Source: an uncultured Desulfosarcina sp.
GTDB lineage: Bacteria; Desulfobacterota; Desulfobacteria; Desulfobacterales; Desulfosarcinaceae
Length of the DNA stretch: 64,000 nt
Direction: 5' to 3'
Assembly (NCBI RefSeq): GCF_963668215.1
Contig: NZ_OY764190.1
Coordinates: 5,084,001-5,148,000, forward strand
Shown here: in pieces, positions 5,600-23,011 of the stretch
Numbering within the stretch: position 1 is the stretch's first letter
Layout: each line of letters opens with the position of its first letter
Program-made: the position numbers and the translations under genes
The notes under the pieces: model-generated
Seen by the model: only the letters and a program-made list of their open reading frames with translations
Told to the model about the DNA's origin: nothing
The model's database searches: none

Positions 5600-6283
5600 T
5601 TATTTCGGCTTTTTAAGCTTCTGGTAATAGGAGTGGGATGTGTAGACCGCCGCAAGGGGATTGTGGCCGGTAACCCGGTCTTTGGCGGCCAGTACCGTGC
5701 TGAACGCCTCGGCCCTTTTGAGAAACAGGGCATCGTGCCCCACACAAAGACCCAGTACGACGTTCAGTTGGGTCTTTTCCCGATTCAGAATTTCTGCCTG
5801 AAGCAACGGGTTGCACATGGTCTCATAGCTTCCGATATGCACTTTTTCCGCATCGGTGAGCCCGATCGCCTCCTTCTTGATACCCCCGCAATTGCAGGAA
5901 ACGGAGGCTAGTACAAAACCTTGAGACTCGAATATATCCGCCACGAGGCCCGCTTCCTTTTGCAACCCCCCGCAAAAGGCAAGACCCAGCTTGCTGCAGC
6001 CTAACTTCCTGGCGAACTCGACGGTTTCCTCGATTCGGGATTTGGTGGGCTGAAGGACATAGGGTCCCGGCTTGCGGTTGGCGTAACATTCGGCTTCCTG
6101 AATCGAGGCCATTCGTGCGAATTCGGCAACCGCCGGATCATGATAGCTATCGAGGATTTTTTCGGCCAGTTCCCGATAGTTGACGGTAGGACAAAATTCG
6201 GGATGGCGACCGCCAGATTCCCTTTTACATATTTTTTCGTTATTGGGGATACGGCATCTTGCGCAATGGGCTCGGCTTTCCAT
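5600..6283 (-). CDS. DUF1847 cysteine-rich, probable metal-binding protein
   Basis: 227 residues from ATG 6283, which has AGGTG nine nucleotides upstream; an in-frame TTG at 6358 is less likely. Cysteines cluster in HCARCRIPNNEKIC at the N-terminus, then CPT, FCGG, SCNCGG, MCNP and LCVGHD. This spacing matches DUF1847 as I remember the family. It may bind a metal or Fe-S cluster, but no reaction is known. It is the last gene of the corrinoid locus, 84 bp after the MFS gene, which hints at a role in metal, cofactor or methyl-transfer chemistry. The assignment is by recalled family pattern. Confidence 0.75.
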   Translation of the reverse strand: MESRAHCARCRIPNNEKICKRESGGRHPEFCPTVNYRELAEKILDSYHDPAVAEFARMASIQEAECYANRKPGPYVLQPTKSRIEETVEFARKLGCSKLGLAFCGGLQKEAGLVADIFESQGFVLASVSCNCGGIKKEAIGLTDAEKVHIGSYETMCNPLLQAEILNREKTQLNVVLGLCVGHDALFLKRAEAFSTVLAAKDRVTGHNPLAAVYTSHSYYQKLKKPK

Positions 6284-6367
6284 GACAGCACCTATTCGAA
6301 AAAAGGTTTGTTGTTTCGCAAGGTTTTTTCCCGTGGCCGGATGATCGAAAGACAGCAACCGGCCGGT

Positions 6368-7645
6368 TCAATCGTTTATCCTCTTTTCCCTGAAAAGGGT
6401 GATGCATACCAAAAGGAGGATGCTGGTCATCAAGAAACAGAACAGTACCGGCGTGTAGGCTTCGGGCGGATAGGTGCCGTCGATTCTTCCGGCCCCGTCC
6501 ATCATCATCCCGCTCAGTGGCTGATGAATTGCGGCACTGAAAAACGCGAAAAAATTGACGCTCCCTACAGCCGTTCCGGCAATCTTGAGGGTAAACAGTT
6601 CTTTTGCGGCTGCGAAGGTCACAACGGCGATGCCGTTGCCGAAAATTCCGAAAAGAAAAAAAATCGGGAAAAGCATTGCATGGGGTATGCGGCCCTGCAT
6701 TGTACAGATCGTTATCCAAAGGAGAACCTGCACCAGCGATGCAAACCAGATGACGGTTTTTCTTTTCCGAACCATCCGGTCCGAGATGCGGCCCAGCAAA
6801 GGGCCGCCCACAATCGTTCCCAACGCGATCATGGATAATACGTTGCCGGCTTCGGGTTTGGAAAGACCGCAGACATCCATCAAAAATGGTCCGGCCCACA
6901 AGCCGCAAAAACCAAAAAGGAGCCCCCCGAAAAAGAAAAACCAACCGGCCAGGGGCCAGAACTGACTTGTAGAAAACACCTGCCGCAGCCCGTCCCACAG
7001 TTTTAGTTCCTGATTGCCGGGTGTCGACAAATCAGCAGCAGTCGGTTCTTTGGATGGTTCGACAAGCAACAACCAGGTCGCCATGGCCAATAGTATCGTC
7101 AGCATACCGATGCCGGTAAATGTGCCTCTCCACCCGAATTGGGCCGTCATCCACGTCAAGGGGGTGGCGGCGATAAACCAACCGACCCCGCCCATGCTCA
7201 ACAGCAGCCCCGAAACGGCAGCGTACTCCCGGGCGTGAAACAACCGTGCACAAACCCGCATGGCCGGGACGAAAATGGCGGAAAGCCCGAATCCTACCAG
7301 CACCCTTGCCAGCGTCGCCACCTGGAAATTGGGCGCCAGCCCGAAGAGAATCGCACCGACAGCGCCCACCGCGGAAAAAATCGTGATGGTTTTACGGGCA
7401 CCCCACCGATCCGCGAATACGCCTACTGGAAGCTGCATCAGGGCATAGGCGTAAAAATAGCCGGAAGACAATAATCCCAGGGAGGCGCCACCGATGGAAA
7501 AAGCGGCTGTCAATTCCCGCGTCATGAGCGCCGGAGAGACCCGGTGGAAATAAACCAGCAGGTATTGCAGCGATAGAATCGCAAATATGGTCCAACGATA
7601 TCCGGGGCGCTGGATGATCTTGCTGTCTATACGATAAAATTTCAT
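6368..7645 (-). CDS. Major facilitator superfamily transporter
   Basis: 425 residues, about 12 membrane helices. It has the MFS signature ADRWGARKTI between helices 2 and 3 and a repeat of it (GRISDRMVRKRKTV) between helices 8 and 9. The N-terminus (YRWTIFAILSLQYLLVYFHR) resembles anion:cation symporter and oxoacid carriers. The ATG shares one base with the stop of the RACo-type gene upstream, so translation is coupled. In this locus it may import a methylated substrate or export the demethylated product. The substrate is not readable from sequence. Confidence 0.88.
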   Translation of the reverse strand: MKFYRIDSKIIQRPGYRWTIFAILSLQYLLVYFHRVSPALMTRELTAAFSIGGASLGLLSSGYFYAYALMQLPVGVFADRWGARKTITIFSAVGAVGAILFGLAPNFQVATLARVLVGFGLSAIFVPAMRVCARLFHAREYAAVSGLLLSMGGVGWFIAATPLTWMTAQFGWRGTFTGIGMLTILLAMATWLLLVEPSKEPTAADLSTPGNQELKLWDGLRQVFSTSQFWPLAGWFFFFGGLLFGFCGLWAGPFLMDVCGLSKPEAGNVLSMIALGTIVGGPLLGRISDRMVRKRKTVIWFASLVQVLLWITICTMQGRIPHAMLFPIFFLFGIFGNGIAVVTFAAAKELFTLKIAGTAVGSVNFFAFFSAAIHQPLSGMMMDGAGRIDGTYPPEAYTPVLFCFLMTSILLLVCITLFREKRIND

Positions 7646-9543
7646 CAGGCTTGCTTACGATTCGGTTTCATGTGAGGCAAATGCATGGCCATGGCGAATT
7701 CGCGTTGAAAATCAGGGCGCGTCGTCAGCTCGACCGTTTCCATCTTTTCGGCCAGTTCGGTCGCCCGCCTCCGCTTGGACCGGTTCATCAGGGCCATCCG
7801 GGCGCCGTCTCCGGCGGCATTGCCTACGGCAACGATTTTATCGGCCGGCACTTCCGGGAATAAACCGATGGTCAGTGCCGATATCGGATCGATTACGCTG
7901 CCAAAGGCGCCGGCCAGAATGACGCGGTCCACGGACCGGACGCCGGTTTCGGCCATCAGGAGCCGGACGCCTGCATGGATGGCGCCCTTGGCCATCTGAA
8001 CCGCCCGAATGTCGTCCTGCCAGATGGCGATGTCTCGATCGCCCGCGCTTTCCCGTGCAGGCGCGACGATAAATGCGGCATCGTTTCCGTTTTGTTTCAG
8101 ACGCGGGGTGACAAGCTGCCGATCCAATGTTCCGTTCTTTTTTATGACCCCCGATGTGAACATGGCGGAAACGGCATCGATCACTCCGGAACCGCAAATT
8201 CCTGCAGCCGGAACAGGCTGTCCCGGTTTTGCCTCGATGACTTGATAGTCCACGTCGAGCGTTTTCCTGTCAATCCGGATCCGTTCGATGGCTCCGGCTG
8301 CCGCCCGCATGCCACAGGACAAGGTGGCCCCTTCCAGGGCAGGACCGGTGGCGCAGGATGTACAAACCAGACGGTTGCCGGATTTCAGGACGATTTCCCC
8401 GTTGGTTCCCACATCGATCACCAAAAGGGTTTCATCGACGTAGGCGCCATCCAGAGCCAGCATCACGCCCACCGTATCGGATCCGACAAAAGCCGAAACA
8501 GCCGGCAGCATATGCACCCATGCTCCCGGTGCGGCTTGAATGCCAAGGTCCCGGGCCTTGATATCGAGCCCCTGGGTCACAACCGGTGCAAAGGGCGACT
8601 TGCCCAGCCCGCTCGGGTCAAGCCCCAGAAAAAGGTGGTGCATGCATGTATTGGCCACGCAGGCGATATCCGCCACCGTATCGATGGCGACAGCTGCCTG
8701 GGTGCAGACCGCGGCGAGCAGTTGGTTGACGGCCCCGATCACCAGTTGTTGAAGTTCTTTGCGTCCGTTGTCTTCATTGGAGGCATGGGCGATGCGCGAA
8801 ATAACATCTTCGCCGCAGGATATCTGGGGGTTGACCGTCGAAGCGGTGGCCAGCACCTCGGCGCTTTCCAGATCGCAAAGATAGGCGGCCAATGTCGTAG
8901 TGCCGATATCCAGGGCCAGTCCGGTCAAAGGGCGGCTGCCGGCAGGTGCTACGCCGATGCATTCGACGCCGTTTCGGATCAGGGCCGTGGTTTTTTCCCC
9001 GCAGGCAAGAACCTTCGGCAAAACGGATAGCATGCCCGCATCCGGATAAATATAGGACAAACTGCTGCCTGCACGGATTTGAGCCGACAGGCGCTCCCAG
9101 TCCGAAGTGGGGGAAGAAAGATCGGGAGCGGGAACGGCTACGGTTTGTGCTTCGACAAAGGGGTCCGGATCGACGGATATGGAACCGGGTGCCTTTCGGA
9201 TCACCTGTCCGCCGCTTCTGCTTTCCTCGGGGATATCGAAAGTGGCATCGCCCATTACCTGACACTGGCAGGCAAGCCGCCATCCCTTTGTGCGCTGCTC
9301 GGCAGAGAGGTGTTTTTCTTCCAGCATTGTTGGCAGCGACAATGAAGGTTCCGAAGAATCGGAACCGGCCTGATGCAACAAACGCACTTTGCACTTGCCG
9401 CAGGTTCCCTGTCCGCCGCAGACGCTTTGCAGATCGACGCCCAGCTTCCTGGCCGCCTGGTCCACCCGAATCCCCCGGGGTACCCGGCCCTGCATACCTC
9501 CCGGAAGAAAACGAACCAGCGGCATTGTATCCGGTTTGTTCAC
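7645..9543 (-). CDS. Reductive activator of corrinoid proteins (RACo-type, 2Fe-2S plus ASKHA ATPase, DUF4445)
   Basis: 632 residues. The N-terminal 2Fe-2S domain has Cys42, Cys48 and Cys51 (VCGGQGTCGKC) and Cys92/94 (ACQCQV). A linker follows, then the actin-like ATPase core with LDIGTTTLAAYL (about 217), VIDVGTNGEI and GAFGSVIDP. The family reduces inactive Co(II) corrinoid back to Co(I) with ATP and electrons from ferredoxin, repairing corrinoid methyl-transfer proteins. Its partner here is surely the corrinoid protein at 12136-12789. The start is a GTG overlapping the previous stop (GTGA). Presence of the 2Fe-2S domain separates it from RamA, which uses 4Fe-4S clusters. Confidence 0.93.
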   Translation of the reverse strand: MNKPDTMPLVRFLPGGMQGRVPRGIRVDQAARKLGVDLQSVCGGQGTCGKCKVRLLHQAGSDSSEPSLSLPTMLEEKHLSAEQRTKGWRLACQCQVMGDATFDIPEESRSGGQVIRKAPGSISVDPDPFVEAQTVAVPAPDLSSPTSDWERLSAQIRAGSSLSYIYPDAGMLSVLPKVLACGEKTTALIRNGVECIGVAPAGSRPLTGLALDIGTTTLAAYLCDLESAEVLATASTVNPQISCGEDVISRIAHASNEDNGRKELQQLVIGAVNQLLAAVCTQAAVAIDTVADIACVANTCMHHLFLGLDPSGLGKSPFAPVVTQGLDIKARDLGIQAAPGAWVHMLPAVSAFVGSDTVGVMLALDGAYVDETLLVIDVGTNGEIVLKSGNRLVCTSCATGPALEGATLSCGMRAAAGAIERIRIDRKTLDVDYQVIEAKPGQPVPAAGICGSGVIDAVSAMFTSGVIKKNGTLDRQLVTPRLKQNGNDAAFIVAPARESAGDRDIAIWQDDIRAVQMAKGAIHAGVRLLMAETGVRSVDRVILAGAFGSVIDPISALTIGLFPEVPADKIVAVGNAAGDGARMALMNRSKRRRATELAEKMETVELTTRPDFQREFAMAMHLPHMKPNRKQA

Positions 9544-9896
9544 TCGACCTCTCTTGGTGCGTTCCGTTCGGCCGTTTCTTCGGAAGAAAGAAAATGAATC
9601 CGAATGTCTGCGGGCCTTGTCGCGCCGACTTCAGCTTCGATGGCCCGCAGTGTTGTCATCGGCAGCGGGCATGAACGGTGCCGCAGTACCTTCACGGCAG
9701 ATTGCCACAAATGAGATTGCGGGAAGTCCTTTCCCAGGCATTGACGCCAATCGACCTGCTTATTCGTTTGCCCCCAAAAGGCCGCTGCTTCGCAATCGCT
9801 GGAGACGGTCAGATTCACTGTGCGGGCGTCTTCCCGGCGAACCGTGATTCGCGTATGCGAGCCACAGGATCCGTCAAAAACATCCACGACATGCAC
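9540..9896 (-). CDS. Small conserved cysteine-containing protein of the corrinoid locus (DUF6951-like)
   Basis: 118 residues from a GTG with GGAG eight nucleotides upstream. Conserved-looking points are GSCG near residue 9, SSDC near 33 and CPLPMTTLRAIEAEVG near 77-92. I recall proteins of this pattern (named DUF6951) next to URO-D-type methyltransferases, but this is memory and the number should be checked. The C-terminal tail overlaps the RACo start by 4 nt, so the two are coupled. Invariant-looking cysteines suggest metal or corrinoid handling. No function is established. Confidence 0.6.
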   Translation of the reverse strand: MHVVDVFDGSCGSHTRITVRREDARTVNLTVSSDCEAAAFWGQTNKQVDWRQCLGKDFPQSHLWQSAVKVLRHRSCPLPMTTLRAIEAEVGATRPADIRIHFLSSEETAERNAPREVE

Positions 9897-9931: not shown

Positions 9932-10990
9932 TCAGTCATTGTAGGAACCGAAATCGTCGAGTGCTTTTTTCAACATATAAACGTGGTATCCGGGAGTCTC
10001 CGGGGATACTTCGCAGCCGGAACTGAACATGAATCCACGCGGGGATTTCTTCCCTTTGGCGATAACTTCCCGGCAGCGGTCATAGACCTGCTCCGGCTTG
10101 GCGGTCAGTAAAATTGCAGGGTCAATGTTGCCGATGATCACGGCCTTTTCTCCGAGAACTTCGATGGCCTTGTCGATATCGATCTCCTCTCCGAAGCTGC
10201 ATAACCCCGGCTCTCCCATGGGAACCTTGGCCCAGTCGTCGAGGTTCGCGTTCTGGTCGCCACAGATGTGGTAGAGGATATGGCGGACGCCCATGGCCAG
10301 GATCTTTTCCGAAGATTCGACCAGGTAAGGCATGATGAACTGCTTGAACTGGCGCGGCGAAATGATCAGGTTGGATGTCAACGGTTCCCAAAACTGGGGA
10401 ATGACTTTTTCCGGTCCGAAAACATCGACCCAATGGGACACGATGTCAACAATATGATCGGTGGCCAACCGGAGAATGCGGTGGGCCGCATCCGGTTTTT
10501 TGAGCATCCATCGGCACACCTTTTCCACGGCGCAAATGTTGCCGGCGATGGTGAAATTACCGCCCATGATCACGGAGATGGGCGTACCGTTTTTTTCCTG
10601 GAGCTTGGAAAATTCCATGGCAATGGGAAGGCATCCGGCTGTCCGCGCATCGGGCAAGGTCAGCGTTTCGATGTCGGCTTCGGATTGGACAGGAAACGTC
10701 TTATGGGCCGGGGCCTGCTGATATTCCCCGGTGGGCATTTCCACCTCGCCGCCGAATTCCCAGGTGCCATAAGAGGCATAGCCGTACATGGGTCCCCAGT
10801 CGACGCCGTACTGCTCAAAGGTTTTTTTCTGTGCATCGAAACTTTTTTCCGCATCGCTGTATATGGCGGAGATGGGCAAACCGACATTTTTCGCACAGAA
10901 CCCGAGAATAAAGGGAAAATGGGGTACGCGGTCCACCGGCTTTCCCTTCAGAACGGCTTCGATCCGTTCGTTTGAAGTCATCTTTTGCAT
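9932..10990 (-). CDS. URO-D-fold methyltransferase of corrinoid system (MtvB/OdmB/MtaA-like), paralog 1
   Basis: 352 residues across the whole uroporphyrinogen-decarboxylase fold. The residues needed for URO-D substrate binding are replaced by a zinc triad as in corrinoid methyltransferases: His241 and Cys243 in YHICGDQ and Cys326 in SSGCEVSP (compare His-x-Cys...Cys of MtaA). Such enzymes move a methyl group between a methylated substrate, a Co(I) corrinoid protein, or a thiol/pterin acceptor. A good ribosome binding site (AGAGGA) precedes ATG 10990. It lies 18 bp behind its paralog, with the corrinoid protein and RACo in the same gene series. Direction and substrate are unknown. Confidence 0.88.
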   Translation of the reverse strand: MQKMTSNERIEAVLKGKPVDRVPHFPFILGFCAKNVGLPISAIYSDAEKSFDAQKKTFEQYGVDWGPMYGYASYGTWEFGGEVEMPTGEYQQAPAHKTFPVQSEADIETLTLPDARTAGCLPIAMEFSKLQEKNGTPISVIMGGNFTIAGNICAVEKVCRWMLKKPDAAHRILRLATDHIVDIVSHWVDVFGPEKVIPQFWEPLTSNLIISPRQFKQFIMPYLVESSEKILAMGVRHILYHICGDQNANLDDWAKVPMGEPGLCSFGEEIDIDKAIEVLGEKAVIIGNIDPAILLTAKPEQVYDRCREVIAKGKKSPRGFMFSSGCEVSPETPGYHVYMLKKALDDFGSYND

Positions 10991-11008: not shown

Positions 11009-12079
11009 TTATTCGTAAAAGCCAAAATCGTGAACCGCTTTGGTCATTGCATAGACATTGGCCGATGGCGCATTGACCGGCATCCCGCAGCCCGGTCCGA
11101 GAATAAAGCCGCCCGGCGCCTTTTTCCCCTTTTCGATGGCGACACGGCACAGTTCGTAGACCTGCTCGGGCGTGCCGGTCTGGATAACCGCCGGCTCGAT
11201 ATTGCCGAAAATGATATCTTTCGGAAAAAGATCCGCTGCCGTTTCAAGATCCACCTCATGACCGAAACTCAGCACGCTGGGATGAGGCCACGGAGGAGAC
11301 TCGGCATAAAGGGGCAGGTTCAGGTTCTGCTCGCCGCAGATATGCTGGCCGAAAAGCTGGACCCCCAGTTCCCTGAGGCGTTGATGGTATGCTTCGTGAT
11401 AGGGCAGGGCGAATTTTTTGAACGTTCTGGGGGAAACGAGCTGGTTCGACTCGCTCGGGCTGCTCATCCACACGAAGACCCGATCAGTGCCGAACGTTTC
11501 CAGCCAAAGCGTCAGCACATTGATGATGTGCTTCAAAGAGATGTCCAGCAATGCCTCGCACAGTTTCGGCTTTTTCATGGTCCAGCGGAGAAACAGATCG
11601 ATTCCGCAGATGTTGGCGGCCATGGTGAAAGGGCTACGGGAGAAGAAATAGACCGGCAGGTTGTGCTCGAACTGGAGTTTGGAAAATCGCATGGCCAGAG
11701 GGATTCTGCCGACCGTGGCCGGATCGGGAAGCGTCAGCTTGGCCACGTCCTCCTCACTGTTCACCGGTTTTTCCGTAACGACCAGGGCGCCTTCGAATTC
11801 TCCCCGAGGCATCCGAACGTCTCCGCCGAAATCCCAGGCGCCCAACACGGTATGCCCGGCATACTGGGGGATCGGATCCCAGCCGTATTGCTCGGTGGTC
11901 CATTGCATGTCGGCAAAACTTTTTTCCGGGTCCTCATAGGCATCGGCCACCGTGTGTCCCGCATTGCGGGTGTTGAATCCCGTACTCATGGCGCCAAGGG
12001 GAACCCGGTCAGGCTTTTGGTATGAGAACAGGGCTTTTATTCTTTCGCTGGCTGTCATTCGGTCTTGTCTTAAATGCAT
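11009..12079 (-). CDS. URO-D-fold methyltransferase of corrinoid system, paralog 2
   Basis: 356 residues from ATG 12079 (GGAGG four nucleotides upstream); an ATG 42 nt earlier lacks support. It keeps the same zinc triad as paralog 1: His246 and Cys248 in GQHICGEQ and Cys331 in GPGCGMP. The two proteins align over their full lengths but differ widely, so this is an old duplication, probably with split roles (substrate:corrinoid and corrinoid:acceptor, or two substrates). In methoxyarene demethylases the substrate-specific enzyme (MtvB, OdmB) is of this fold. It is located directly downstream of the corrinoid protein gene. Confidence 0.88.
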   Translation of the reverse strand: MHLRQDRMTASERIKALFSYQKPDRVPLGAMSTGFNTRNAGHTVADAYEDPEKSFADMQWTTEQYGWDPIPQYAGHTVLGAWDFGGDVRMPRGEFEGALVVTEKPVNSEEDVAKLTLPDPATVGRIPLAMRFSKLQFEHNLPVYFFSRSPFTMAANICGIDLFLRWTMKKPKLCEALLDISLKHIINVLTLWLETFGTDRVFVWMSSPSESNQLVSPRTFKKFALPYHEAYHQRLRELGVQLFGQHICGEQNLNLPLYAESPPWPHPSVLSFGHEVDLETAADLFPKDIIFGNIEPAVIQTGTPEQVYELCRVAIEKGKKAPGGFILGPGCGMPVNAPSANVYAMTKAVHDFGFYE

Positions 12080-12135
12080 GTCGCCTCCGTGGATATCCCG
12101 GTTTGCGCCGGAAGTTGCCATGGCCGTATAAAAAA

Positions 12136-12789
12136 TCAGGCCGCCTTTTTGAGCAGATTTTTGGCTACCTGGACCGCGCTGATGGCGTCTTTTGCATAGC
12201 CGTCTGCCCCGTATTGCTGGGCGATGTCTGCGGTTAGCGGCGCGCCGCCCACCAAGATGATGACATCCGGTTTTTCCGCCTTGAGCATCCCGATGACCTT
12301 GGGCATGGCCATCATGCTGGTGGTCATCAAAGCCGAAATGGCGACCACGTCGGCACCGGTGTCTTTCAGCGCCTCGACAAATTTATCCAGTTTCACATCT
12401 TTTCCCAGGTCGCAGATGTCCCAACCGGCGGCTTCGAACATGGTTTTCACCAGGCTTTTGCCGATATCGTGAATGTCCCCTTCCACAACGCCCATGACGA
12501 TCTTGCCGGCAGTCTGGTGTTCATCCACTTTTACATGGGGCCGAAGCACATCGAGGCCGGCATACATGGCATCCGAGCACAGAAGGAGTTCAGGTACGAA
12601 GTATTCTTTCTGTTCATACAAACGACCCACTTCATCCATGCCGGCAGCCAGTCCCCCCATGATGGCATCGTAGGGCGGAACGCCTATTTCCAGTGCCTTC
12701 TTGCAAAGGTCGGCCGCCTTTTCCTCATCGAATTCCACCACACAGTCATGGATTTCTTTCAGCAACTCGTTTTTTATCTCGTCTTTCAT
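12136..12789 (-). CDS. Corrinoid (B12-binding) methyl carrier protein, MtaC/MtvC family
   Basis: 217 residues. Residues 1-90 form the helical cap domain (B12-binding-2). Residues 95-217 form the Rossmann-like cobalamin domain with D105-x-H107-x-x-G110 in GDIHDIGKS, SALMTTSM (about 153) and VGGAPLT (about 181). His107 is the expected lower cobalt ligand. It carries the methyl group between the two methyltransferases as methyl-Co(III). A strong ribosome binding site (AAGGAG) precedes the ATG. The gene sits between the redox trio and the two methyltransferase genes and is the centre of the pathway. Confidence 0.95.
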   Translation of the reverse strand: MKDEIKNELLKEIHDCVVEFDEEKAADLCKKALEIGVPPYDAIMGGLAAGMDEVGRLYEQKEYFVPELLLCSDAMYAGLDVLRPHVKVDEHQTAGKIVMGVVEGDIHDIGKSLVKTMFEAAGWDICDLGKDVKLDKFVEALKDTGADVVAISALMTTSMMAMPKVIGMLKAEKPDVIILVGGAPLTADIAQQYGADGYAKDAISAVQVAKNLLKKAA

Positions 12790-12822: not shown

Positions 12823-13842
12823 TTATTGGACGGATCTGGAAGACAAAGGAAAGCATTTTCCGAGGATCTCACCCATATCCCATACCCGGATGCCCAGTTC
12901 TTTCTCATGTTTCATCAGGTTGATTAAGCAGATGGGACAGGCCACCAGGATATCGGAACCGTTGGCGGCAAGTTCCCGGGCCCGCATACAGGAAATGGAC
13001 CGGCTTAGATCTGCGTAGGCATATTCAACGGGTCCGCCGCAGCAGCCGGTATTGATTCCGCAGTTTTCAGGCTCGGCCACCTGGCAGCCGATTCGGGACA
13101 AAATGGTCCGGATGGGTTCAACGATCCCCAGATCCCGGGTCATGACGCACGAATCGTGCAGGACGATTTTTTCCGGGACCCCATCCGGTCGGGCTTTCGG
13201 AAAAATGGATTCGGCGTCGGCAAGAACCTCCAGGTAATGGCGCACCGCCAGGTTGAATTCGCCCATGTAGCGGGGATAAACCTGGCGCAGCATGAAGGTG
13301 GTGTGCGGGTCGACGGTTAGAACGGTTCGGCTGCCTGTCGATTGCAGCGTGCGATACACCTCGCGGGCAATGGGGGCAACGGCCTCTTCCATCCCCAAAT
13401 CGTACAGCAGCACACCGCTGTAAGGCTCCTTGTCGAAAAGGTAGGCGGGATCGATACCGGCTTTTCGCAATGCGGCGACAATGCCGAAAAGGGCCGATTC
13501 CGTACGTTTCCGGATTTCGCCTTCCCGTCGTGCGCCCAGCCGAATGATCGGATCGCCGGCCAGTGCACCGGCATATTCCGCCATCTTGGAAAACAGTTTG
13601 ACGGAAAGCATGGGGACCAGCGGCTGCGCCTTGGCGGCCATCTCCGTTGTCTGGACCACATAGGGCAGCATTTGATACATGCGCGCCGTGAAAAGCAGGG
13701 GCGAACCATGGTCGGAAAGGTTCAGATTGTCGGCCCATTTCGTCCAATAGGGCACTTTCAGCCCCAGGGGGTCGCCGGTTCTCTCGATATTGCCCTGGAT
13801 GGTTTTCAGGGCTTGTGAGATCAATACCTTAGAGTTTCGCAT
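12823..13842 (-). CDS. CCG-domain iron-sulfur oxidoreductase subunit (GlcF/HdrB C-half-like)
   Basis: 339 residues with cysteine-rich CCG motifs: HDSC (about 233), ENCGINTGCCGG (about 262-273) and ACPIC (about 301-305). Such domains bind non-cubane 4Fe-4S clusters in HdrB, GlpC, LutA and GlcF. The usual N-terminal ferredoxin part of GlcF is missing here and is supplied by the next gene upstream, whose end overlaps this start by 14 nt. Together with the FAD protein the three probably make a membrane- or quinone-linked, or ferredoxin-linked, dehydrogenase. The first 100 residues have no motif I recognise. Confidence 0.85.
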   Translation of the reverse strand: MRNSKVLISQALKTIQGNIERTGDPLGLKVPYWTKWADNLNLSDHGSPLLFTARMYQMLPYVVQTTEMAAKAQPLVPMLSVKLFSKMAEYAGALAGDPIIRLGARREGEIRKRTESALFGIVAALRKAGIDPAYLFDKEPYSGVLLYDLGMEEAVAPIAREVYRTLQSTGSRTVLTVDPHTTFMLRQVYPRYMGEFNLAVRHYLEVLADAESIFPKARPDGVPEKIVLHDSCVMTRDLGIVEPIRTILSRIGCQVAEPENCGINTGCCGGPVEYAYADLSRSISCMRARELAANGSDILVACPICLINLMKHEKELGIRVWDMGEILGKCFPLSSRSVQ

Positions 13843-15596: not shown

Positions 15597-16280
15597 TCAT
15601 GTTTTATCCGGTTTTTTACCCGCATAAACCGTAAAATTGTAACGTTTGAAATAGCAGTCCACATCAACAAACCCGGCAGCCCTCATCCAGGCCAGTTGAT
15701 ATTCAAGGGTAGCGGGACGATCACAGGCCATACGCTTGTAAATCGCCTCGAGTTCGGCTTTTTCGATGTCGGTGGATTCCAGATGCCTGCGCCAGTACCT
15801 CTGGTAGCACGCTTCCGTATCCGGCGTCGTGCCAAGGGCCAGTTCGGCGTGGATAAAGCAGCCAGCGGGAGTCAAGGCGTTAAAAATTCTTTGCATGAGC
15901 TGCTGTTTTTCCGTATCGGACAGATGATGGATGGACATGGCCGATACGATCAGCGGAAATCGGTCGGGCAGCGTTTCCCGGGCGTAGTCGCGAGCATAAA
16001 ATTTTACCGCACCTTCCCCGGAAAACCGTTCGCGGGCCTTTTCAAGCATTTTCTCCGAAATGTCCAGAAGATGGGCCTCGGCGTTTGGAAACCGCTTCCG
16101 GATCAGCGCCGAAACCAAGCCGGTTCCTGCGCCCAGATCGAGGAAAGAAAATCGATCTGCCCGATCAAAAGGAATCAGATCCAGCAGCGTCCCATAGAAG
16201 TCGTCGAAGCAGTAGATTACCTTTCGCCGGTTGCCATCGTATTTATGGGCACCGGCGTCGAAGAGTTCTTTCACGGTCAT
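15597..16280 (-). CDS. Class I SAM-dependent methyltransferase
   Basis: 227 residues from ATG 16280 (GAGG nine nucleotides upstream); an upstream GTG at 16322 overlapping the MmgE gene is possible. Motif I is FLDLGAGTGLVS with acidic LLDIS after beta-2, motif post-I SAMSIHHLSD. This is a small-molecule methyltransferase fold (Methyltransf_25/12 type). It is odd in a demethylation pathway: it may methylate an intermediate, or act on another metabolite. Substrate unknown. Gap to the FAD gene is 17 bp. Confidence 0.82.
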   Translation of the reverse strand: MTVKELFDAGAHKYDGNRRKVIYCFDDFYGTLLDLIPFDRADRFSFLDLGAGTGLVSALIRKRFPNAEAHLLDISEKMLEKARERFSGEGAVKFYARDYARETLPDRFPLIVSAMSIHHLSDTEKQQLMQRIFNALTPAGCFIHAELALGTTPDTEACYQRYWRRHLESTDIEKAELEAIYKRMACDRPATLEYQLAWMRAAGFVDVDCYFKRYNFTVYAGKKPDKT

Positions 16281-16314
16281 CGAAGGAATCCTCTCTTGAT
16301 TTCGGGGAGGCGCT

Positions 16315-17691
16315 TCAGCCACCCATGATACGGATCAAATCCTGCACATCGCCAAGTGCTTCCAGGTTCTCGATCATTGAAAAAAGCGCTTCGCATGCAT
16401 CTTTTTTCAACGGGAAACCACTGTAATCGTGGCATTTGGTGAACTTGCGACGGCATTGGTCCGCATTCATGGGATTGCGGGGGTTGCCTAACGGAATCGG
16501 GACATCTTCGGAAATGACGGCCCCGTCCTTTCGGACGACGGTCATCTTGGCCGCAAGGATATCCTTTGCCGCCAGGGCGGGATCGGCAGCGACACGGACC
16601 CGTTCGGCCAAATCCATCACCGCAGCATCGGCAATGGCTTCGGTCTCGAAGTCCTGCAAAAAGACGTCCCCGCGAATAATCGCGCAGGCGGTGGTATAGG
16701 GAATGCTGAACTGGGCGTCGACCTGTGGATTGCTCCCGGGCTGAAAGGGTTTGCCAACCATCTCGGCCCCCATCGAGCAAACCGACACATCGACTCGTTT
16801 GATCTCTTCCACCGGCATTACCCGGTCACGCAGAGCCAGAGCCGCGTCGATGCTCGCGTGGGTCATCCGGCAGGCAGGATAGGGTTTGAGGCTCAAATCG
16901 ACGATTGAATAATGTTTCCCCAGCAATTCGGTAACCGGTGCAGGATCGAAGCTGCCCTGTTCATAAAGTGGATAATATCCGTATGGACCGGTGAGGAAAC
17001 GTCGGCTTCCGGTAATGCCGCGGCCGGCCAGAAAGGCGGAAAGCACGCCGGCGGAGGCAGCAAAACCGGGTTGCATCCGCTTCACCAGGCATCCTTCCAG
17101 CAACCCCTGGGCATTTCCCGAAGTCTGTCCGTAAACGATCCCAAGCGCATTGAAGATTTCTTCCCGGTTCAGACCGAGAATTTTTGCGGCCGTAGCGGCG
17201 GCGCCGAAGCAACCGCAGGTGGCCGTTCGGATCCAGGAAAGGGGCTGGTCGATGGCCAGGCTGATCCGGGAGATAATGTCCACACCGACAACCAGAGCGG
17301 TGATCAGTTCCTTTCCACTGACGGGTTTGCCGTTTCCCCTCGCCGCCAGCGCCGCCGGCAGCACATTGACGAAGGTGTGCAACGCCGAAGCGTCGAGGGT
17401 ATCGTCGAAGTCCATGGCGTGCATCATGGCGCTGTTGGCCATCGCCGCCATCGGCGGGGACACCTGGATACCGGACAGCAGCACAGAAGCGCCGCTTTCG
17501 ACAGGCCAGGTTCCGAGCAGGTCGAGGATTTCCGGGCAGCCGGGCGCACGGCTGCCCGGAAATGCCACGCCTAAAGTATCCAGAATCAGATTTTTGCAAC
17601 AGTCGATCGACTGACTGTCGAGGTCGTCAAAACTCGTTTCGGCAATGTAATCGACTAAAATTTCTTCCAGGCTCGGTTCTACGGCAGACAT
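16315..17691 (-). CDS. MmgE/PrpD family protein
   Basis: 458 residues spanning the whole MmgE/PrpD fold. Landmarks are MMHAMDFDDT (about 91-100), which holds the conserved Asp pair, and KPYPACRMTHASIDAAL in the second half. Known members are 2-methylcitrate dehydratase, cis-aconitate decarboxylase and several uncharacterised isomerases or dehydratases of catabolic operons. ATG 17691 has GGAGG four nucleotides upstream. It overlaps the creatininase gene by 13 nt, so the two may act in sequence on the same carbon skeleton. Exact reaction not assignable. Confidence 0.87.
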   Translation of the reverse strand: MSAVEPSLEEILVDYIAETSFDDLDSQSIDCCKNLILDTLGVAFPGSRAPGCPEILDLLGTWPVESGASVLLSGIQVSPPMAAMANSAMMHAMDFDDTLDASALHTFVNVLPAALAARGNGKPVSGKELITALVVGVDIISRISLAIDQPLSWIRTATCGCFGAAATAAKILGLNREEIFNALGIVYGQTSGNAQGLLEGCLVKRMQPGFAASAGVLSAFLAGRGITGSRRFLTGPYGYYPLYEQGSFDPAPVTELLGKHYSIVDLSLKPYPACRMTHASIDAALALRDRVMPVEEIKRVDVSVCSMGAEMVGKPFQPGSNPQVDAQFSIPYTTACAIIRGDVFLQDFETEAIADAAVMDLAERVRVAADPALAAKDILAAKMTVVRKDGAVISEDVPIPLGNPRNPMNADQCRRKFTKCHDYSGFPLKKDACEALFSMIENLEALGDVQDLIRIMGG

Positions 17692-18500
17692 GCGGCCTCC
17701 GCTGGGTTCCACGGTAAGGAAATTTTTTGGAATTCTTTCAAAAAGTCACCTGCATATTCAGCAATCCTGGCGAGAATTGCCTCACCTTTTTCAACGGTGG
17801 CCGAGGTGGGGTCGCCCATGGTGCCCGAATCGGTGATTTCCCGTATATCCTGATATAACGTCTGCACCGAGCCCCCGAAGGCAATATCGCCTAAGGAGTT
17901 TTGCACCTTGAAAGCGCTTTCTTTTAACGATTTGGGGTGATCGGCTTGCATGCGTTCAACGACAACGGCTTCCGGTTTCAATGCCATTATCGTTGATGTC
18001 ATGATTTCACCGGCATGGGTGAACCGGCCTTCTTCAATCAAGCCGTCTTGGATTGCACAAAGGTCGTTCGCCAGTTTCCATATGCTGAGCATGCCAATGC
18101 GGATCCCATGACGGCCGGTTAGTAGGCGGGCCGCCGATTCGATGCACGGGTTGTTTCCCCTGTGGGCGTTCAGAAAAACGAACCGGCGGAATCCTGCTTT
18201 AAAAAGGCTTTCCACGTACTCGACAAGAACCCGGACCAGTGTTTCCGTCTCCAGAGATATGGTACCGGAAAAGGGCAGAAACCATTTGGAGTAGCCTATG
18301 GGCAGGGTCGGGCCAATGAACACCCCCGGGATACCATTCAGTCTTCGAGCAATTCCGTCCGCTACAATGGTGTCGACACCAAGGGGTAAATGGTTCCCCT
18401 CCAATTCCGTCGATCCCATGGGAATCACCACGACCGAATTTTCTTCAGCTGCCCTGCTGCATTCTTCTGAAGTCATTTCCGAAATATAAAAAGAAGTCAT
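17679..18500 (-). CDS. Creatininase family amidohydrolase
   Basis: 273 residues with the metal-site motifs of the family: GSTELEGNHLPLGVDT (about 29-44), LNAHRGNN (about 109) and HAGEIMTS (about 167). Family members open lactam or formamide rings (creatininase, FAPy deformylase, mycofactocin MftE). The usual STEQHGPHLPLGTD is here STELEGNHLPLGVD and NGHGGN is NAHRGN, so the active site departs from creatininase itself. Located between the transporter and the MmgE/PrpD gene, it probably performs an early ring-opening or amide step. Confidence 0.87.
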   Translation of the reverse strand: MTSFYISEMTSEECSRAAEENSVVVIPMGSTELEGNHLPLGVDTIVADGIARRLNGIPGVFIGPTLPIGYSKWFLPFSGTISLETETLVRVLVEYVESLFKAGFRRFVFLNAHRGNNPCIESAARLLTGRHGIRIGMLSIWKLANDLCAIQDGLIEEGRFTHAGEIMTSTIMALKPEAVVVERMQADHPKSLKESAFKVQNSLGDIAFGGSVQTLYQDIREITDSGTMGDPTSATVEKGEAILARIAEYAGDFLKEFQKISLPWNPAEAACLP

Positions 18501-18557: not shown

Positions 18558-20459
18558 TTAAGCCCTCGTTTTCGCAGTAACCAATCCGATGGTAAACCGT
18601 TTGAGCAGATCCGGAACTCGTATCCAGAGAACGACCAGCACGATAACCAAGCCGATGATATCCGATAAAAGGCCAGGATAGATAAGGCAGCCGGCGCCGA
18701 CGAACAACAGCACCCGAAAAATGATCGTAAGACGGCCACCGAGGAAATTTTGAGCGGCGCACGCCAGGGCCAGTACGCCGAAAAAGGAGGTTATGCAGAC
18801 CTGGACAATCTGCCCGGGGCTTCCGATCAGCAGCAGGGCATTGTTGTAGACGAACATATACGGCACGATAAAAATGATCAGCGCCAGGCGACAGGCCGTG
18901 AAGGCGGTCCGCATCATGGGCGCATCCGCAATACCGGCGGCCACGAATGCATCGGGCGCCATGGGCGGCGTGATCCCCGCGATGGTAGCGAAATAGAAGA
19001 CGAACAGATGGGCAGCCAGGGGATAGACGCCGAGTTTGACCAGGGCCGGCACCACGAGAATGGACAGCACGATGTAGGCTGCCACCGGCGGTACGCCCAT
19101 CCCGAGGATAATCGAGGCGATCATGGTCAGAAAAAGCAATGCCAGCAGGTTGCCGCCGGACATTTTGATCAGCAGGCCCGACATCATCAACCCCAGACCG
19201 GTCAGGGTAATCATGCCCAGCACAACGCCGCCCAGGGACAAAATGGCGACTACGGGCAGGGCCGTCAGGGCGCCTTGTTCGAGGCCCTCGAAGAGTTGGC
19301 GGAGGGTCATCCGTCGGCCGGGTCCGGCCAGTTGGCTGCAGATGGGAATCGAAACGGCGCCCCAGAAAGCTGCGCGGGTCACCGAAACTTTGGAATATAC
19401 GAGAAAAAATATCAGGACGAAGATGGGAATGAAGAAAAACCAGCCTTCTTTGAGGGTCTGCTTCAGGCTGGGGAGTTCATCCTTGGGCATGCCTGCCATG
19501 TCCAATTTCTGGGCTTCGATGTCAATCATCAAAAACAGCCCGACATAGTAAAGGATGGCCGCCAGGCCGCCGGCCTTCATGATGGTGACGTAATTGACGC
19601 CCAATACCTCCATGATGATGAAAACGGCGCTGCCCATGATCGGCGGCATCAACAGCCCGCCGGCGCTGGATACGGTTTCCACGGCCGCGGCGAAATGGGG
19701 TTTGTAGCCGCTGCGCTTCATCAACGGGATGGTGATTTGTCCGGTTCCGGCCACATTCGCCGTTCCGCTGCCCGAAAGCATCCCGAACAGAGAAGAGGCG
19801 ACCACGGCGATTTTGGCCGGGCCGCCGCGAACATGCCCGAAAAGGGCGAAAGAGAGATTGATGAAGAACTCGCCGCCGCCGGCGGCGCGCAGCAGGGCGC
19901 CAAAGAGAATAAACAGGAAGATGTAGGTCGCCGAGATACCCGCCAGCATGCCGAAAACACCGTCCGTGGTGATAAACATGTTACTGACGATTCGCTCGAA
20001 AGAGTAATTGCGATGGGCCAAAAAACTGGGCAGCATCTCGCCGAAACGGGCATAAATCATCGCAACCACGGAGATAATCGGAAAGATCCATCCCAGTGTC
20101 CGCCTGGCCGCTTCAATACACATCAGCAGAAAGACGGTTCCCATCGCCAGTTCGTACCAGGGGGGACACATCCCGCATTCGCCAATCTTTTTGAACCAGT
20201 TGGCCAGAACATAAATGCCCATCAGGAGCACAATTGCTGACATGAGGTACCCATGCCAGGCGATTCGTGTCTTTTTCTTCTGATCGAAACCATAGAGAAG
20301 AAAAATCAGTACCAGTGCAAAGGTTACGTGAATGACCCGCTGGTTCATGGCGGTCAGTTGGAAAATACCCGTATAAAGTTGAAACAGGCTCATGGCAATG
20401 GCAATTACCCGGATGAGCAAAGGGGATGAGGCGGTTGATGGTGCGGTTTTGTTCTCCAT
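18558..20459 (-). CDS. TRAP transporter fused permease (DctQ-DctM, 4TM/12TM type)
   Basis: 633 residues, strongly hydrophobic. The N-terminal part (about 1-140) is the small DctQ-like unit with four to five helices. The rest is DctM, containing MLSGSGTANVAGTGQITIPLMK, here split by positions 215-236, and GMGVPPVAAYIVLSILVVP. Fused permeases of this type pair with TAXI receptors and use an ion gradient to import carboxylates or other small acids. ATG 20459 is used because the TTG 18 nt earlier is weak. The binding protein is encoded 214 bp upstream, with a hairpin in the gap. Confidence 0.93.
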   Translation of the reverse strand: MENKTAPSTASSPLLIRVIAIAMSLFQLYTGIFQLTAMNQRVIHVTFALVLIFLLYGFDQKKKTRIAWHGYLMSAIVLLMGIYVLANWFKKIGECGMCPPWYELAMGTVFLLMCIEAARRTLGWIFPIISVVAMIYARFGEMLPSFLAHRNYSFERIVSNMFITTDGVFGMLAGISATYIFLFILFGALLRAAGGGEFFINLSFALFGHVRGGPAKIAVVASSLFGMLSGSGTANVAGTGQITIPLMKRSGYKPHFAAAVETVSSAGGLLMPPIMGSAVFIIMEVLGVNYVTIMKAGGLAAILYYVGLFLMIDIEAQKLDMAGMPKDELPSLKQTLKEGWFFFIPIFVLIFFLVYSKVSVTRAAFWGAVSIPICSQLAGPGRRMTLRQLFEGLEQGALTALPVVAILSLGGVVLGMITLTGLGLMMSGLLIKMSGGNLLALLFLTMIASIILGMGVPPVAAYIVLSILVVPALVKLGVYPLAAHLFVFYFATIAGITPPMAPDAFVAAGIADAPMMRTAFTACRLALIIFIVPYMFVYNNALLLIGSPGQIVQVCITSFFGVLALACAAQNFLGGRLTIIFRVLLFVGAGCLIYPGLLSDIIGLVIVLVVLWIRVPDLLKRFTIGLVTAKTRA

Positions 20460-20559
20460 AGTTGACCCCGTTTTCAATAATTTGCCAAGGCGGCTTGTGA
20501 TCTTTCCGGCAGTTGTGGCCTCAAGGATATGTCTGCAAGAAAATAATTGTGTGCGCTTG

Positions 20560-20673: not shown

Positions 20674-21666
20674 TTATTCGTAATACTCGGCCCGTTTATC
20701 CCAAATGCCGATTTCCTTATAGTATTTGACCGCTCCAGGATGGTACCCTACGGGAACTCCCGGTGCCCCACGGAAGGCATTTTTCGGCGTGTACATTTTT
20801 GCCATCGGATGAATGGCGTCGCGGTCTTCGGGATGACCGTAGACGGCTTTTAGAATCGTGTAGACCAGGTCCTCTGAAAGATCTGTACGGCAAATCCACA
20901 TCTGGGGCAGGGTATAGGTGTGAACATCTTCTTCCATTCCCGAATAGGTTCCGGCAGGTATCGTCAACGGCACAACGTTCTTGTAATTGTCCCGGAGACG
21001 TTTGAGCGCCTCGGGTTCGATTTCAATCAGGCGGATCGGAATGTCTCTCGCCAACTCCATGACCGAGGCCAGCGGAGCTCCGGCAGCAATGATGCCGCAA
21101 TCGATGGTGTTGTCACGAATTCCCCGGGTGACCTCTGAAAAAGAGATGTATTTGGGCGAAAAATCGTCAAAAGTGAGCCCCCAGCCAGTTTCTATGTGTT
21201 TTTTGGAATAAATGTTCAATGTGGCGCTTCCGGCCGGTCCGACACCGATAACCTTTCCCTTGAAATCGGAGATGGAGCGGATGGGTGAATCTTTTCGGAC
21301 GATCCAGTGCGTATCGCTGGTGTGCCCCACGGCAATCAGGCGAACTTTGTCGACATCCATTCCCTGGTCTTTGAGATCGTTGAGCGTTCCCATGCAGGCC
21401 AGTCCCAGATCCATTTCCCCACGAATCAATAGACGTGCGTTTTCTGTAGACGCCGCCGTTGATTCGGCGGCAACCCGCACGTTGGGAACATGATTGTTGA
21501 TCAACGCGGCAAAACCGGCGCCAAGGAAATAATAGGTTCCTGCCGGGCTGCCGGTTCCGAAGGAAATGAATTTGATGGCGGACGCCGGGGCTGCTGCCAG
21601 AAACAACACGACAAACGCTAACACAAGGGGCCTGATGAACCGGAGTGACAATCTTCTTACATGCAT
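20674..21666 (-). CDS. TAXI-family TRAP transporter substrate-binding protein
   Basis: 330 residues. A signal peptide (positively charged MHVRRLSLRFIR, hydrophobic core, cleavage near APASA-IK) marks it as periplasmic. The mature start FISFGTGSPAGTYYFLG is the hallmark of the TAXI family; GVGPAGSATLN follows in the middle. It captures the substrate and delivers it to the fused permease. Very strong ribosome binding site AAGGAGGG. Known TAXI ligands include glutamate and dicarboxylates, but most are orphan, so the ligand is open. The absence of another receptor in the locus points to one dedicated substrate class. Confidence 0.93.
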   Translation of the reverse strand: MHVRRLSLRFIRPLVLAFVVLFLAAAPASAIKFISFGTGSPAGTYYFLGAGFAALINNHVPNVRVAAESTAASTENARLLIRGEMDLGLACMGTLNDLKDQGMDVDKVRLIAVGHTSDTHWIVRKDSPIRSISDFKGKVIGVGPAGSATLNIYSKKHIETGWGLTFDDFSPKYISFSEVTRGIRDNTIDCGIIAAGAPLASVMELARDIPIRLIEIEPEALKRLRDNYKNVVPLTIPAGTYSGMEEDVHTYTLPQMWICRTDLSEDLVYTILKAVYGHPEDRDAIHPMAKMYTPKNAFRGAPGVPVGYHPGAVKYYKEIGIWDKRAEYYE

Positions 21667-21696: not shown

Positions 21697-22116
21697 TTAG
21701 CCAATTTCCTTGATCAGGATCGTGAAACCGCTGGGCAATTGATTGTATAGCATTGGAAATTCTTGCGTGAGTTCTTCTCCGGCAGGTACCCCGGCAACAT
21801 CGTCCTTGACCTTGCGCGGGTACAATCCGCCCGCCGACGTTCCGTCCGGAAGGAAGATGTTGACCCGAAACCGTTTTGTTTCGGCCGACTTGTTTTTCAC
21901 TGTAATGGACATGTGCAGGCGGTCCGCGCCCTTGTACGGTTTGATACAGTATGCAATCTGCGTGATTTCCGCGGAAGGGGTTACCTCGTACTGGATGTTC
22001 TGTTCGAACGCGGCTTCATCGACGCCGGCATCCGTGGTTGCGCATCCTCCGAGGCCGAAAAGCGCAATCGCCAGAACGACGCTTGCCAATAGTTCAATCC
22101 TGCTCGGTTTGGGCAT
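21697..22116 (-). CDS. Predicted outer-membrane or periplasmic lipoprotein, unknown function
   Basis: 139 residues. The N-terminal hydrophobic stretch ends in FGLGGCATTD, a lipobox with Cys25. The mature part is beta-rich (MSITVKNKSAETKRFRVNIFLPDG), resembling a small immunoglobulin-like domain such as DUF1425/YcfL. It lies 30 bp before the TAXI receptor gene and shares its direction, so it may help substrate passage across the periplasm. GGAGAG ribosome binding site. The YcfL resemblance is by eye only. Confidence 0.75.
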   Translation of the reverse strand: MPKPSRIELLASVVLAIALFGLGGCATTDAGVDEAAFEQNIQYEVTPSAEITQIAYCIKPYKGADRLHMSITVKNKSAETKRFRVNIFLPDGTSAGGLYPRKVKDDVAGVPAGEELTQEFPMLYNQLPSGFTILIKEIG

Positions 22117-22191: not shown

Positions 22192-22206
22192 AACCGTCGG
22201 ACGGTT
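22192..22206 (-). other. Small hairpin downstream of gntR-type gene
   Basis: AACCGT-cgg-ACGGTT forms a 6-bp stem with a 3-nt loop, 17 nt after the regulator stop codon. No U-tract follows, so a terminator role is weak. It could separate the regulator from the transport genes. Confidence 0.35.
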
Positions 22207-22222
22207 ATGACCGCACAAAACC

Positions 22223-23011
22223 TTACAATTTCGTTTCCTCGGACCAACAATGATTCTCTTGTCGAATGCGGCGGTCAATTTCCTGAACTTGATCTTCAGG
22301 CATGACATGGGTGTAGGCTTGGTAGGTGTCTAGCAAATGCCGGCGTGTCATTTCATACGCCTCGGCAGGGTTGTGTTTTACGATGGCATCCAGGATCTCC
22401 CGGTGCCCCTGAATAAACTGTTGAATTACCCGTCGGCGGAGTTGGGTCTGCGTCAGTTCGATGATCGTGGCCGAATAGGATTGGGTGATGGATTCGGTAA
22501 TAAATAAAATAATAGGATTTTTTGTAATTTTAGCTACTTCAACGTGAAAAGAAACATTGGTAAGACGTGCGCTTTTACGGGATGTCGCAACCTGAGCCTC
22601 AGCTTTATCCAAAACCTGATGCAGGCGATCGATATCTTTTTTCGTAGCGTACTTTGCGGCAATCTCCGATGCCCGGGGTTCGATATAAAGACGGGCATCG
22701 ATAAGGTGGGTAAAACCGATCCGGCCCATATGAATCAGATTTCTGAAATTTTCGGTGATCGGATCGGAATTGGGTTCCGATACATAGGCGCCAGCGTTGA
22801 TTCCTCTTCGAATTTCGATCAAACCAGCGCTTTGTAAATTCCTCAGCGCTTCACGAATGGTGACGCGGCTCACTTGGAACTGGTCGACAAGTTCCCGCTC
22901 CGAGGGAAGTTTCTCCCCGGGCTTAAAGATCTCGTCTGTAATAGAAGTCTGGATGGCTTCCTTAACTTCCTGAGATAGCAGTGGTTTCTTAAGGGATTTG
23001 TATCCTGCCAC
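22223..23011 (-). CDS. GntR family transcriptional regulator, FadR/FCD subfamily
   Basis: 262 residues. The N-terminal winged helix contains LPSERELVDQFQVSRVTIREAL (about 39-60, beyond 20 residues only by position). The C-terminal all-helical FCD domain has the metal-site residues Asp and His expected in DARLYIEPR, FHVEVAK and HREILDAI. FCD regulators sense carboxylates and usually repress catabolic operons until the ligand binds. The GTG start has GGAAGGAG upstream. It heads the 17-gene minus-strand series and probably controls it and itself. A palindrome at 23060-23074 is a candidate operator. Confidence 0.92.
   Translation of the reverse strand: MAGYKSLKKPLLSQEVKEAIQTSITDEIFKPGEKLPSERELVDQFQVSRVTIREALRNLQSAGLIEIRRGINAGAYVSEPNSDPITENFRNLIHMGRIGFTHLIDARLYIEPRASEIAAKYATKKDIDRLHQVLDKAEAQVATSRKSARLTNVSFHVEVAKITKNPIILFITESITQSYSATIIELTQTQLRRRVIQQFIQGHREILDAIVKHNPAEAYEMTRRHLLDTYQAYTHVMPEDQVQEIDRRIRQENHCWSEETKL

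Follow-up and report, generated by a model that had tools for sequence, protein, structure and literature searches.

We analyzed a 64,000-nucleotide (nt) window of the genome of an uncultured Desulfosarcina sp. (contig NZ_OY764190.1, positions 5,084,001 to 5,148,000), and describe here a cluster of 17 genes that lie on its minus strand from position 23011 down to 5600. The cluster consists of two modules: a core of transporter and oxidoreductase genes, and a methyl module built around a corrinoid protein. In outline, it probably imports a methylated organic acid, transfers the methyl group to the corrinoid protein, and oxidizes what remains. Our more specific reading, to which we assign a probability of about 0.5, is a conserved catabolic cluster of Desulfobacterota for the uptake, demethylation and oxidation of an S-methylated carboxylic acid, with an O-methylated acid being less likely.

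Gene content and conservation of the cluster

Open reading frames read from the sequence, with families assigned by Pfam and NCBIfam, confirm the 17 one-strand genes of the original prediction and the 15 items that it named; its list had omitted a class I SAM methyltransferase (15597..16322; PF13649) and a DUF6951 protein (9540..9896; PF22263). A GntR/FCD transcription regulator (22223..23011; PF00392, PF07729) heads the cluster, as it also does in the homologous loci L040, L043, L080, L198 and L200. It is followed by a small lipoprotein with a Cys lipobox (21697..22116), which has no Pfam or NCBIfam match, and by a TAXI solute receptor (20674..21666) and a TRAP fused permease (18558..20477). 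Both the receptor (TIGR02122, 231.5 bits; cut-off 84.35) and the permease (TIGR02123, 644.4 bits; cut-off 320.65) exceed curated cut-offs and are clear members of their families. Next come a divergent creatininase-family metal hydrolase (17679..18500; PF02633), an MmgE/PrpD-family protein (16315..17712, or perhaps from an ATG at 17691; PF03972, PF19305), the SAM methyltransferase, a GlcD-like FAD protein (14167..15579; PF01565, PF02913), a two-[4Fe-4S] protein resembling the N-terminal half of GlcF (13829..14170; PF13183), and a CCG-domain protein resembling the C-terminal part of GlcF (12823..13842; PF02754). The remaining genes encode a corrinoid protein (12136..12789; PF02310, PF02607) with a DxHxxG motif read from the sequence and a TIGR02370 score of 192.4 bits (cut-off 215.3), two URO-D methyltransferases of family PF01208 (URO-D1, 11009..12121, and URO-D2, 9932..10990), the DUF6951 protein, a RACo-type corrinoid reductive activase (7645..9543), an MFS transporter (6368..7645; PF07690), and a DUF1847 protein (5600..6358; PF08901).

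With URO-D1 as query, 29 of 60 genomes, including the window's own, matched at 0.001. Alignment A1 at 1e-60 matched 17 of 291 genomes of the order and 16 of 395 genomes of the phylum, the own genome included in each case; a scan of selected genomes gave 8 loci, and an initial contig scan with URO-D2 as the sole query found no relative. All 17 genes are present in G043 (loci L039 and L040) and in G045 (L043), each from another family, with the MFS gene relocated and DUF1847 inverted in the latter. Two further genomes, G099 (L198 and L081) and G141 (L200 and L078), carry 16 of the 17 genes on two contigs each and lack only the MFS gene, and DUF1847 is also inverted in L081. G033 (L199 and L042) has 13 genes and no MFS gene, while three more genes may fall past its contig ends; in L042, as in L078 and L081, the MFS gene is missing from between RACo and DUF1847. 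Most of the set is also present in L053 and L055. Finally, an entire 25.8-kb contig of G061 (L079 and L080) holds 11 genes and is without the corrinoid protein, URO-D2, DUF6951, RACo, MFS and DUF1847.

The set is more than a chance association, as it recurs with near-identical gene order in genomes of other families. The genes are kept together in related genomes, and this synteny supports the predicted union of corrinoid-dependent demethylation with acid uptake, to which oxidation can be added. Within the window's own genus, the cluster is patchy, since 12 other genomes contain no URO-D1 relative above 49% identity. Among the matches listed from plasmid records, only distant relatives appear (GlcD 27.5-31.1%, MmgE 31.9-34.2%, URO-D1 23-26%).

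Eleven distinct cluster loci, window included, retain the SAM methyltransferase (relatives in L039, L043, L053, L055, L079, L112, L113, L198, L199 and L200), though plain demethylation needs no such enzyme. This conservation would fit a scheme in which the methyl group is made within the pathway, with the SAM methyltransferase activating an intermediate and the corrinoid system later recovering the methyl. We consider that scheme very unlikely: on the short contig L158 the same gene accompanies DUF1847, MmgE and TAXI in the absence of URO-D genes, and L111 yielded no copy of it.

Only 6 of the 16 gene junctions overlap, fewer than the many overlaps of 1-14 nt originally claimed. Five of these do fall in that range (14, 8, 4, 4 and 1 nt), and the creatininase/MmgE overlap measures 34 nt if MmgE starts at its first GTG and 13 nt if it starts at the ATG that follows. 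Gaps of 9-57 nt occur at eight of the other junctions, and two wider ones, of 106 and 196 nt, lie close to the cluster's head. One of the 4-nt overlaps, with the GlcD stop, depends on reading the start of the small Fe-S gene as the GTG at 14170; a start at 14317 was discarded, as it would overlap GlcD by 151 nt.

Several loci carry additional genes. Downstream of DUF1847 in L042 (6241-11202; G033) are a penicillin-amidase-family gene, a GntR-like gene, and a glycyl-radical (PFL-like) enzyme gene. A block after URO-D1 in L053 (10072-14972), L055 (11293-14910) and L082 (2139-7650) contains a gene of the M24 creatinase family (tested with Pfam in L053, and near-identical by sequence in the other two) together with a second TAXI gene; in L053 and L082 the block also has a second TRAP gene and is placed between URO-D1 and URO-D2.

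Two modules and their association

The core module comprises the lipoprotein, TAXI, TRAP, MmgE/PrpD, GlcD-like flavoprotein and GlcF-like Fe-S proteins, and is also found without methyl genes; the methyl module comprises the corrinoid protein, both URO-D methyltransferases, DUF6951 and RACo. Lipoprotein, TAXI, TRAP, MmgE/PrpD, GlcD-like and GlcF-like genes stand together in L164, and portions of the core run up to contig ends in L153, L161, L162 and L163. L156 and L157 have MmgE, TAXI, GlcF-like and GlcD genes with DUF1847, and no TRAP gene was seen there; L159 and L172 have the transporter and MmgE up to the contig end, and L154 and L155 combine MmgE, GlcD and GlcF-like genes with a TAXI gene that is more distantly related. 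Because short contigs could hide methyl genes, we checked 25 genomes. Six (G311, G381, G324, G466, G313 and G413) contain no corrinoid-protein relative at 1e-30, and among these the GlcD subfamily is present at 1e-60 in G311 (L153), G324 (L161), G466 (L163) and G313 (L164). Since core genomes exist without a corrinoid-protein relative, the core can also act on a substrate for which demethylation of this kind is not required. We therefore discarded the view of the cluster as a single indivisible 17-gene pathway, as first proposed: the core exists alone, and MFS, DUF1847 and even the corrinoid block vary.

Two distinct core branches carry the methyl module. In a GlcD tree, 13 cluster rows form one clade (100/100), and L109 of G465, whose GlcD is 39% identical to that of the window, lies apart from them as sister to the core-only L153 (100/99). 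L109 carries, in order, the end of an MmgE gene, GlcD, GlcF-like, EtfB, EtfA, an Fe-S/CCG protein, the corrinoid protein, URO-D1, and the start of URO-D2; other contigs of G465 hold TAXI, TRAP and MmgE (L160) and URO-D2, DUF6951, RACo and a creatininase-family gene (L117). L110 (G565) has a TRAP permease (25%), MmgE (25%), GlcD, GlcF-like and URO-D1 in a row, and long branches make its position in the trees uncertain. The URO-D1 tree, unlike the GlcD tree, groups L109 and L110 with rows from G353, G491 and G645, at 80/87 only. (L057 and L198 in the GlcD and MmgE trees are the same contig.) On the simplest view of these trees, the methyl module would have joined the core at least twice, with weak support from the URO-D1 tree. 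Because it is attached to two distinct core branches, its coupling to the core looks functional.

The methyl module could instead be a salvage system for recycling methyl-selenium or methyl-sulfur compounds, of the kind proposed for type 1 mlp gene clusters, and merely be co-located with acid catabolic genes. As described in the preprint PMC10418091, type 1 clusters likewise have several URO-D proteins, a corrinoid protein, RACo, and no folate methyltransferase. Mere co-location is improbable in view of the synteny with the core kept across families, the presence of the methyl module on two core branches, and the receptor, permease and regulator that head the same gene run.

Loci outside the cluster show further neighbors. 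Core genes in L161 (5939-9005) stand beside both aconitase X genes and a FAD_oxidored gene, a neighborhood that may hint at what the core acts on. PrpR_N sigma-54 activators take the place of GntR upstream of the lipoprotein gene in L159 (128-2083) and L164 (7927-9834), and L162 has a gene similar to them by sequence. DUF1847 adjoins MmgE/PrpD on stretches without URO-D genes in L156, L157 and L158, and so may be associated with the core and not with the corrinoid genes. In L166 and L167, creatininase-family (39-40%) and MmgE/PrpD (34-35%) genes occur with transporter genes resembling those of tripartite tricarboxylate systems; in L167, Pfam confirmed TctA and DUF169.

Methyl transfer, core enzymes and the likely substrate

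URO-D1 and URO-D2 are 41% identical, and alignment shows that both keep a His-X-Cys motif and a distal Cys as predicted zinc ligands (H260, C262 and C345 in URO-D1; H241, C243 and C326 in URO-D2). After removal of five rows with less than 80% query coverage (L082 1160-2020, L115, L047, L122 2129-3226 and L085 8246-9181), this His-Cys-Cys triad is present in 48 of 49 URO-D rows of a joint alignment, and the 49th row is truncated. The same positions align with those of the methylcobalamin:coenzyme M methyltransferase 4ay7, which we take to be MtaA. 4ay7 is also the nearest solved fold to a model of URO-D1 (pLDDT 90.1; Z 35.1, 2.4 Å over 325 residues), ahead of uroporphyrinogen decarboxylases with Z of 31.4 and less; CdmB was not among the solved chains listed for this comparison. 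Both proteins score below the cut-offs of coenzyme M methyltransferase models (TIGR01463, 109.9 and 105 against 235.4; NF040654, 95 and 79.8 against 400). According to PMC10418091, His-Cys-Cys marks S/Se-methyltransferases of the superfamily, and carboxylates or non-ligands replace Cys in O-methyltransferases. The His-Cys-Cys sites of both URO-D proteins thus favor an S-methyl (thioether) over an O-methyl substrate.

The GlcD-like protein bears on the same question. It keeps H379, H386 and E425, which align with the zinc ligands His434, His441 and Glu475 of human D-2-HGDH, and has Trp426 at the position of the proposed base His476 (PMC7801405). The resulting GEWG motif, in place of GEHG, occurs in 21 of 25 GlcD rows, and the other four are fragments without the motif. 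Judged from these alignments, GEWG proteins would constitute a branch of the GlcD family with metal ligands kept and the catalytic His lost, and their chemistry should differ from that of 2-hydroxyacid dehydrogenases. Because the subfamily includes core-only loci, this substitution is not linked to demethylation.

A reading close to the original prediction, in which the substrate is a methoxylated acid, URO-D1 takes the methyl of its methyl ether and the GlcD-like enzyme oxidizes the hydroxy acid to a keto acid, is unlikely on this evidence. A URO-D methyltransferase, a corrinoid protein and RACo are indeed O-demethylase parts (PMC13222342, PMC8630106), and a hydroxy acid product would fit both the kept flavoprotein metal ligands and the neighboring KorABC genes described below. 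Yet both URO-D proteins have His-Cys-Cys where PMC10418091 reports substituted sites for O-demethylases, and the flavoprotein has Trp where a hydroxyl-deprotonating base is expected. Moreover, the cluster has no folate methyltransferase: Pterin_bind is not found among its 17 genes, and all five of the genome's Pterin_bind matches map elsewhere than in the window. The site, the absent methyltransferase and the coenzyme M methyltransferase as nearest solved fold likewise speak against the analogy to methoxyarene O-demethylases drawn in the original prediction. PMC13222342 describes CdmB as zinc-free and some O-demethylases as zinc-containing.

The creatininase-family hydrolase had been taken as a ring-opening enzyme, pointing to a methylated heterocycle or amide. 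In alignment A5 it carries E-L-E at the positions of E-Q-H in creatininase and 3no4, with L117 as the exception (E-Q-Q) among 10 rows, and H-R/K-G at those of creatininase's H-Y-E. Its Glu34 and Gly115 align with His36 and Glu122, which we take to be among the creatininase metal ligands, and it scores 104.4 bits on TIGR04448 against a cut-off of 235. The missed cut-off and the missing ligands led us to rule out creatinine-type ring opening, and a creatinine-like ring is unlikely because creatininase's own ligands are lacking. The creatininase-family gene itself, and the additional M24 gene of L053 with its near-identical counterparts in L055 and L082, would speak for a creatininase-type enzyme that opens an N-methylated heterocycle or amide (creatinine or methylhydantoin, for example). 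The low model score and the altered E-L-E and H-R/K-G motifs make such a substrate highly improbable; moreover, the corrinoid N-demethylases known to us use other methyltransferase families. The MmgE/PrpD protein falls far below the 2-methylcitrate dehydratase PrpD cut-off (TIGR02330, 59.6 bits against 458). Its nearest solved sequence is cis-aconitate decarboxylase, whose active site we take to be His103, His159, Lys207 and His277; His112 and Lys211 align with His103 and Lys207, and Ile161 and Cys281 with His159 and His277.

Two small proteins may extend known systems. RACo exceeds Pfam cut-offs for its Fer2, linker, middle and C-terminal domains (PF14574, PF17651, PF17650 and PF00111), and DUF6951 adjoins it in every locus seen with both genes, also outside the cluster (L117, L194-L196). 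RACo occurs without DUF6951 in L088, L121 and L201-L204. DUF6951 is possibly a partner of the corrinoid activase. The lipoprotein gene lies directly upstream of TAXI also in the URO-D-free loci L158, L159, L161, L162, L164 and L172, and a distant relative precedes the second TAXI of L053. Its model, a predicted beta-sandwich (pLDDT 78.6), has no solved-structure match at E 0.001 or better. The lipoprotein is a candidate fourth component of this transporter.

Gene content, synteny, the two modules and, by alignment, the ligand residues are observed; from them we infer the substrate and the following reactions with their order and direction. The lipoprotein, TAXI and TRAP proteins would import the acid, and one zinc URO-D protein would pass the acid's methyl group to the corrinoid protein in its Co(I) form, a reduced state that RACo, with DUF6951, would maintain. 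The methyl group would leave via the second URO-D protein to a thiol, or via a folate methyltransferase encoded elsewhere, and in this sulfate reducer could be oxidized by a reversed Wood-Ljungdahl route. The demethylated acid would be processed by MmgE/PrpD, the hydrolase and the electron-transferring GlcD-like/GlcF-like oxidoreductase, perhaps to a 2-oxoacid for KorABC.

Several points weigh against this S-methylated-acid reading. His-Cys-Cys is present in every relative examined and so does not discriminate within the set; that O-demethylases lack it is taken from PMC10418091, and the triad sets the cluster apart from published O-demethylases only to the extent that this preprint is correct. 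The cluster itself contains no sulfur gene, and the lone sulfur hint, a weak one, is a TauE/SafE-family permease gene after the corrinoid protein and URO-D1 in L108 (11439-12218; G327). The modules also separate. URO-D1 and the corrinoid protein occur without core neighbors in L108 and in L115 (G494), and the contig of G090 is rearranged, with no GlcD match in the genome at 1e-60. No corrinoid gene lies beside URO-D1 in G061, G353, G491, G645 or L055; in G353, G491 and G645, where URO-D1 is in the cluster, the nearest corrinoid protein (53-54%) is elsewhere, beside RACo and DUF6951. Core loci L154 (5410-6889) and L155 (13353-14791) are not URO-D-free, because a distant URO-D gene (27-29%, His-Cys-Cys) stands beside GntR. 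Finally, as a possible alternative to repeated joining, the modules may have come together once, long ago, with several losses since; under either history the core-methyl link is kept across deep branches. A small Cys-rich protein gene is also found beside GntR in L154 and L155.

The host is likely a sulfate reducer with a Wood-Ljungdahl route, as its 6.68-Mb genome contains dsrA (611 bits; cut-off 392.85) and one match to CdhC of acetyl-CoA synthase. One of its five Pterin_bind matches is close to another RACo. A second corrinoid locus of the same genome (L203; G000:C1:2610000-2629000) has two corrinoid-protein matches, a RACo with an in-frame TAA in the match, and a Pterin_bind gene, and may supply a methyltransferase II. 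KorABC, a 2-oxoacid:ferredoxin oxidoreductase (2594..5088, minus strand), lies 511 nt beyond the cluster, and its membership is uncertain: it also adjoins the cluster in G099 (L198), on the opposite, upstream side, and was not found in the fetched flanks of G043, G061 and G141, giving two of five. G+C content, in 2-kb steps, is 51-58% over 6001-24000 and 59-61% over 1-6000. Scans for promoter-like sites (5, against a mean of 11.5 in shuffles) and terminator-like sites (30 against 23.8, little excess) were uninformative, and an Rfam search of the window gave no RNA element at gathering score.

Relation to known systems

To our knowledge, few anaerobic demethylation routes have been worked out beyond those for methoxyarenes, methylamines, betaines and simple methyl sulfides, and searches of the open-license literature aimed at this gene set, or at corrinoid demethylation in these bacteria, listed no description of it. 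Tentatively, the cluster may represent a pathway not yet described, combining import of an S-methylated acid in sulfate reducers, thioether demethylation by a His-Cys-Cys URO-D pair, oxidation by a new GlcD branch without the catalytic His, DUF6951 as a RACo partner, and the lipoprotein as a fourth TAXI part. In anoxic settings, methylated acids supply both carbon and methyl groups. The cluster offers a defined gene set, with orthologs in several Desulfobacterota families, whose substrate could be found by receptor screening.

The cluster would work like known corrinoid demethylation systems, but departs from O-demethylases in two features, the zinc site and methyltransferase II. It shares a methyltransferase I, a corrinoid protein and an activase with the O-demethylases MtvB/OdmB/VdmB, Cdm and Mto (PMC13222342, PMC8630106); those systems include a methyltransferase II and the zinc-free CdmB, whereas the cluster has His-Cys-Cys sites and no methyltransferase II. 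The soluble coenzyme M methyltransferases of the MtaA/MtbA type (4ay7, from Methanosarcina mazei) share the URO-D fold and His-Cys-Cys and provide the nearest solved structure of URO-D1, but identity to 4ay7 is 24% and the cluster proteins fall below the family cut-offs. Type 1 mlp gene clusters (PMC10418091), compared here by gene content, match in their several URO-D homologs, corrinoid protein, activase and lack of a folate methyltransferase; here these genes instead stand in near-fixed order with an uptake system, MmgE/PrpD, a flavoprotein and a hydrolase. The FAD 2-hydroxyacid dehydrogenases GlcD, LctD and D-2-HGDH share the FAD_binding_4 and FAD-oxidase_C domains and the His, His and Glu ligands of the cluster flavoprotein, which differs in having Trp for the catalytic His476 in all 21 rows that reach the position. 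Closest to the core are the TAXI-TRAP-MmgE-GlcD-GlcF loci of other Desulfobacterota, which have homologous uptake and oxidation genes and the same GEWG subfamily, but no adjoining corrinoid or close URO-D genes on the stretches seen.

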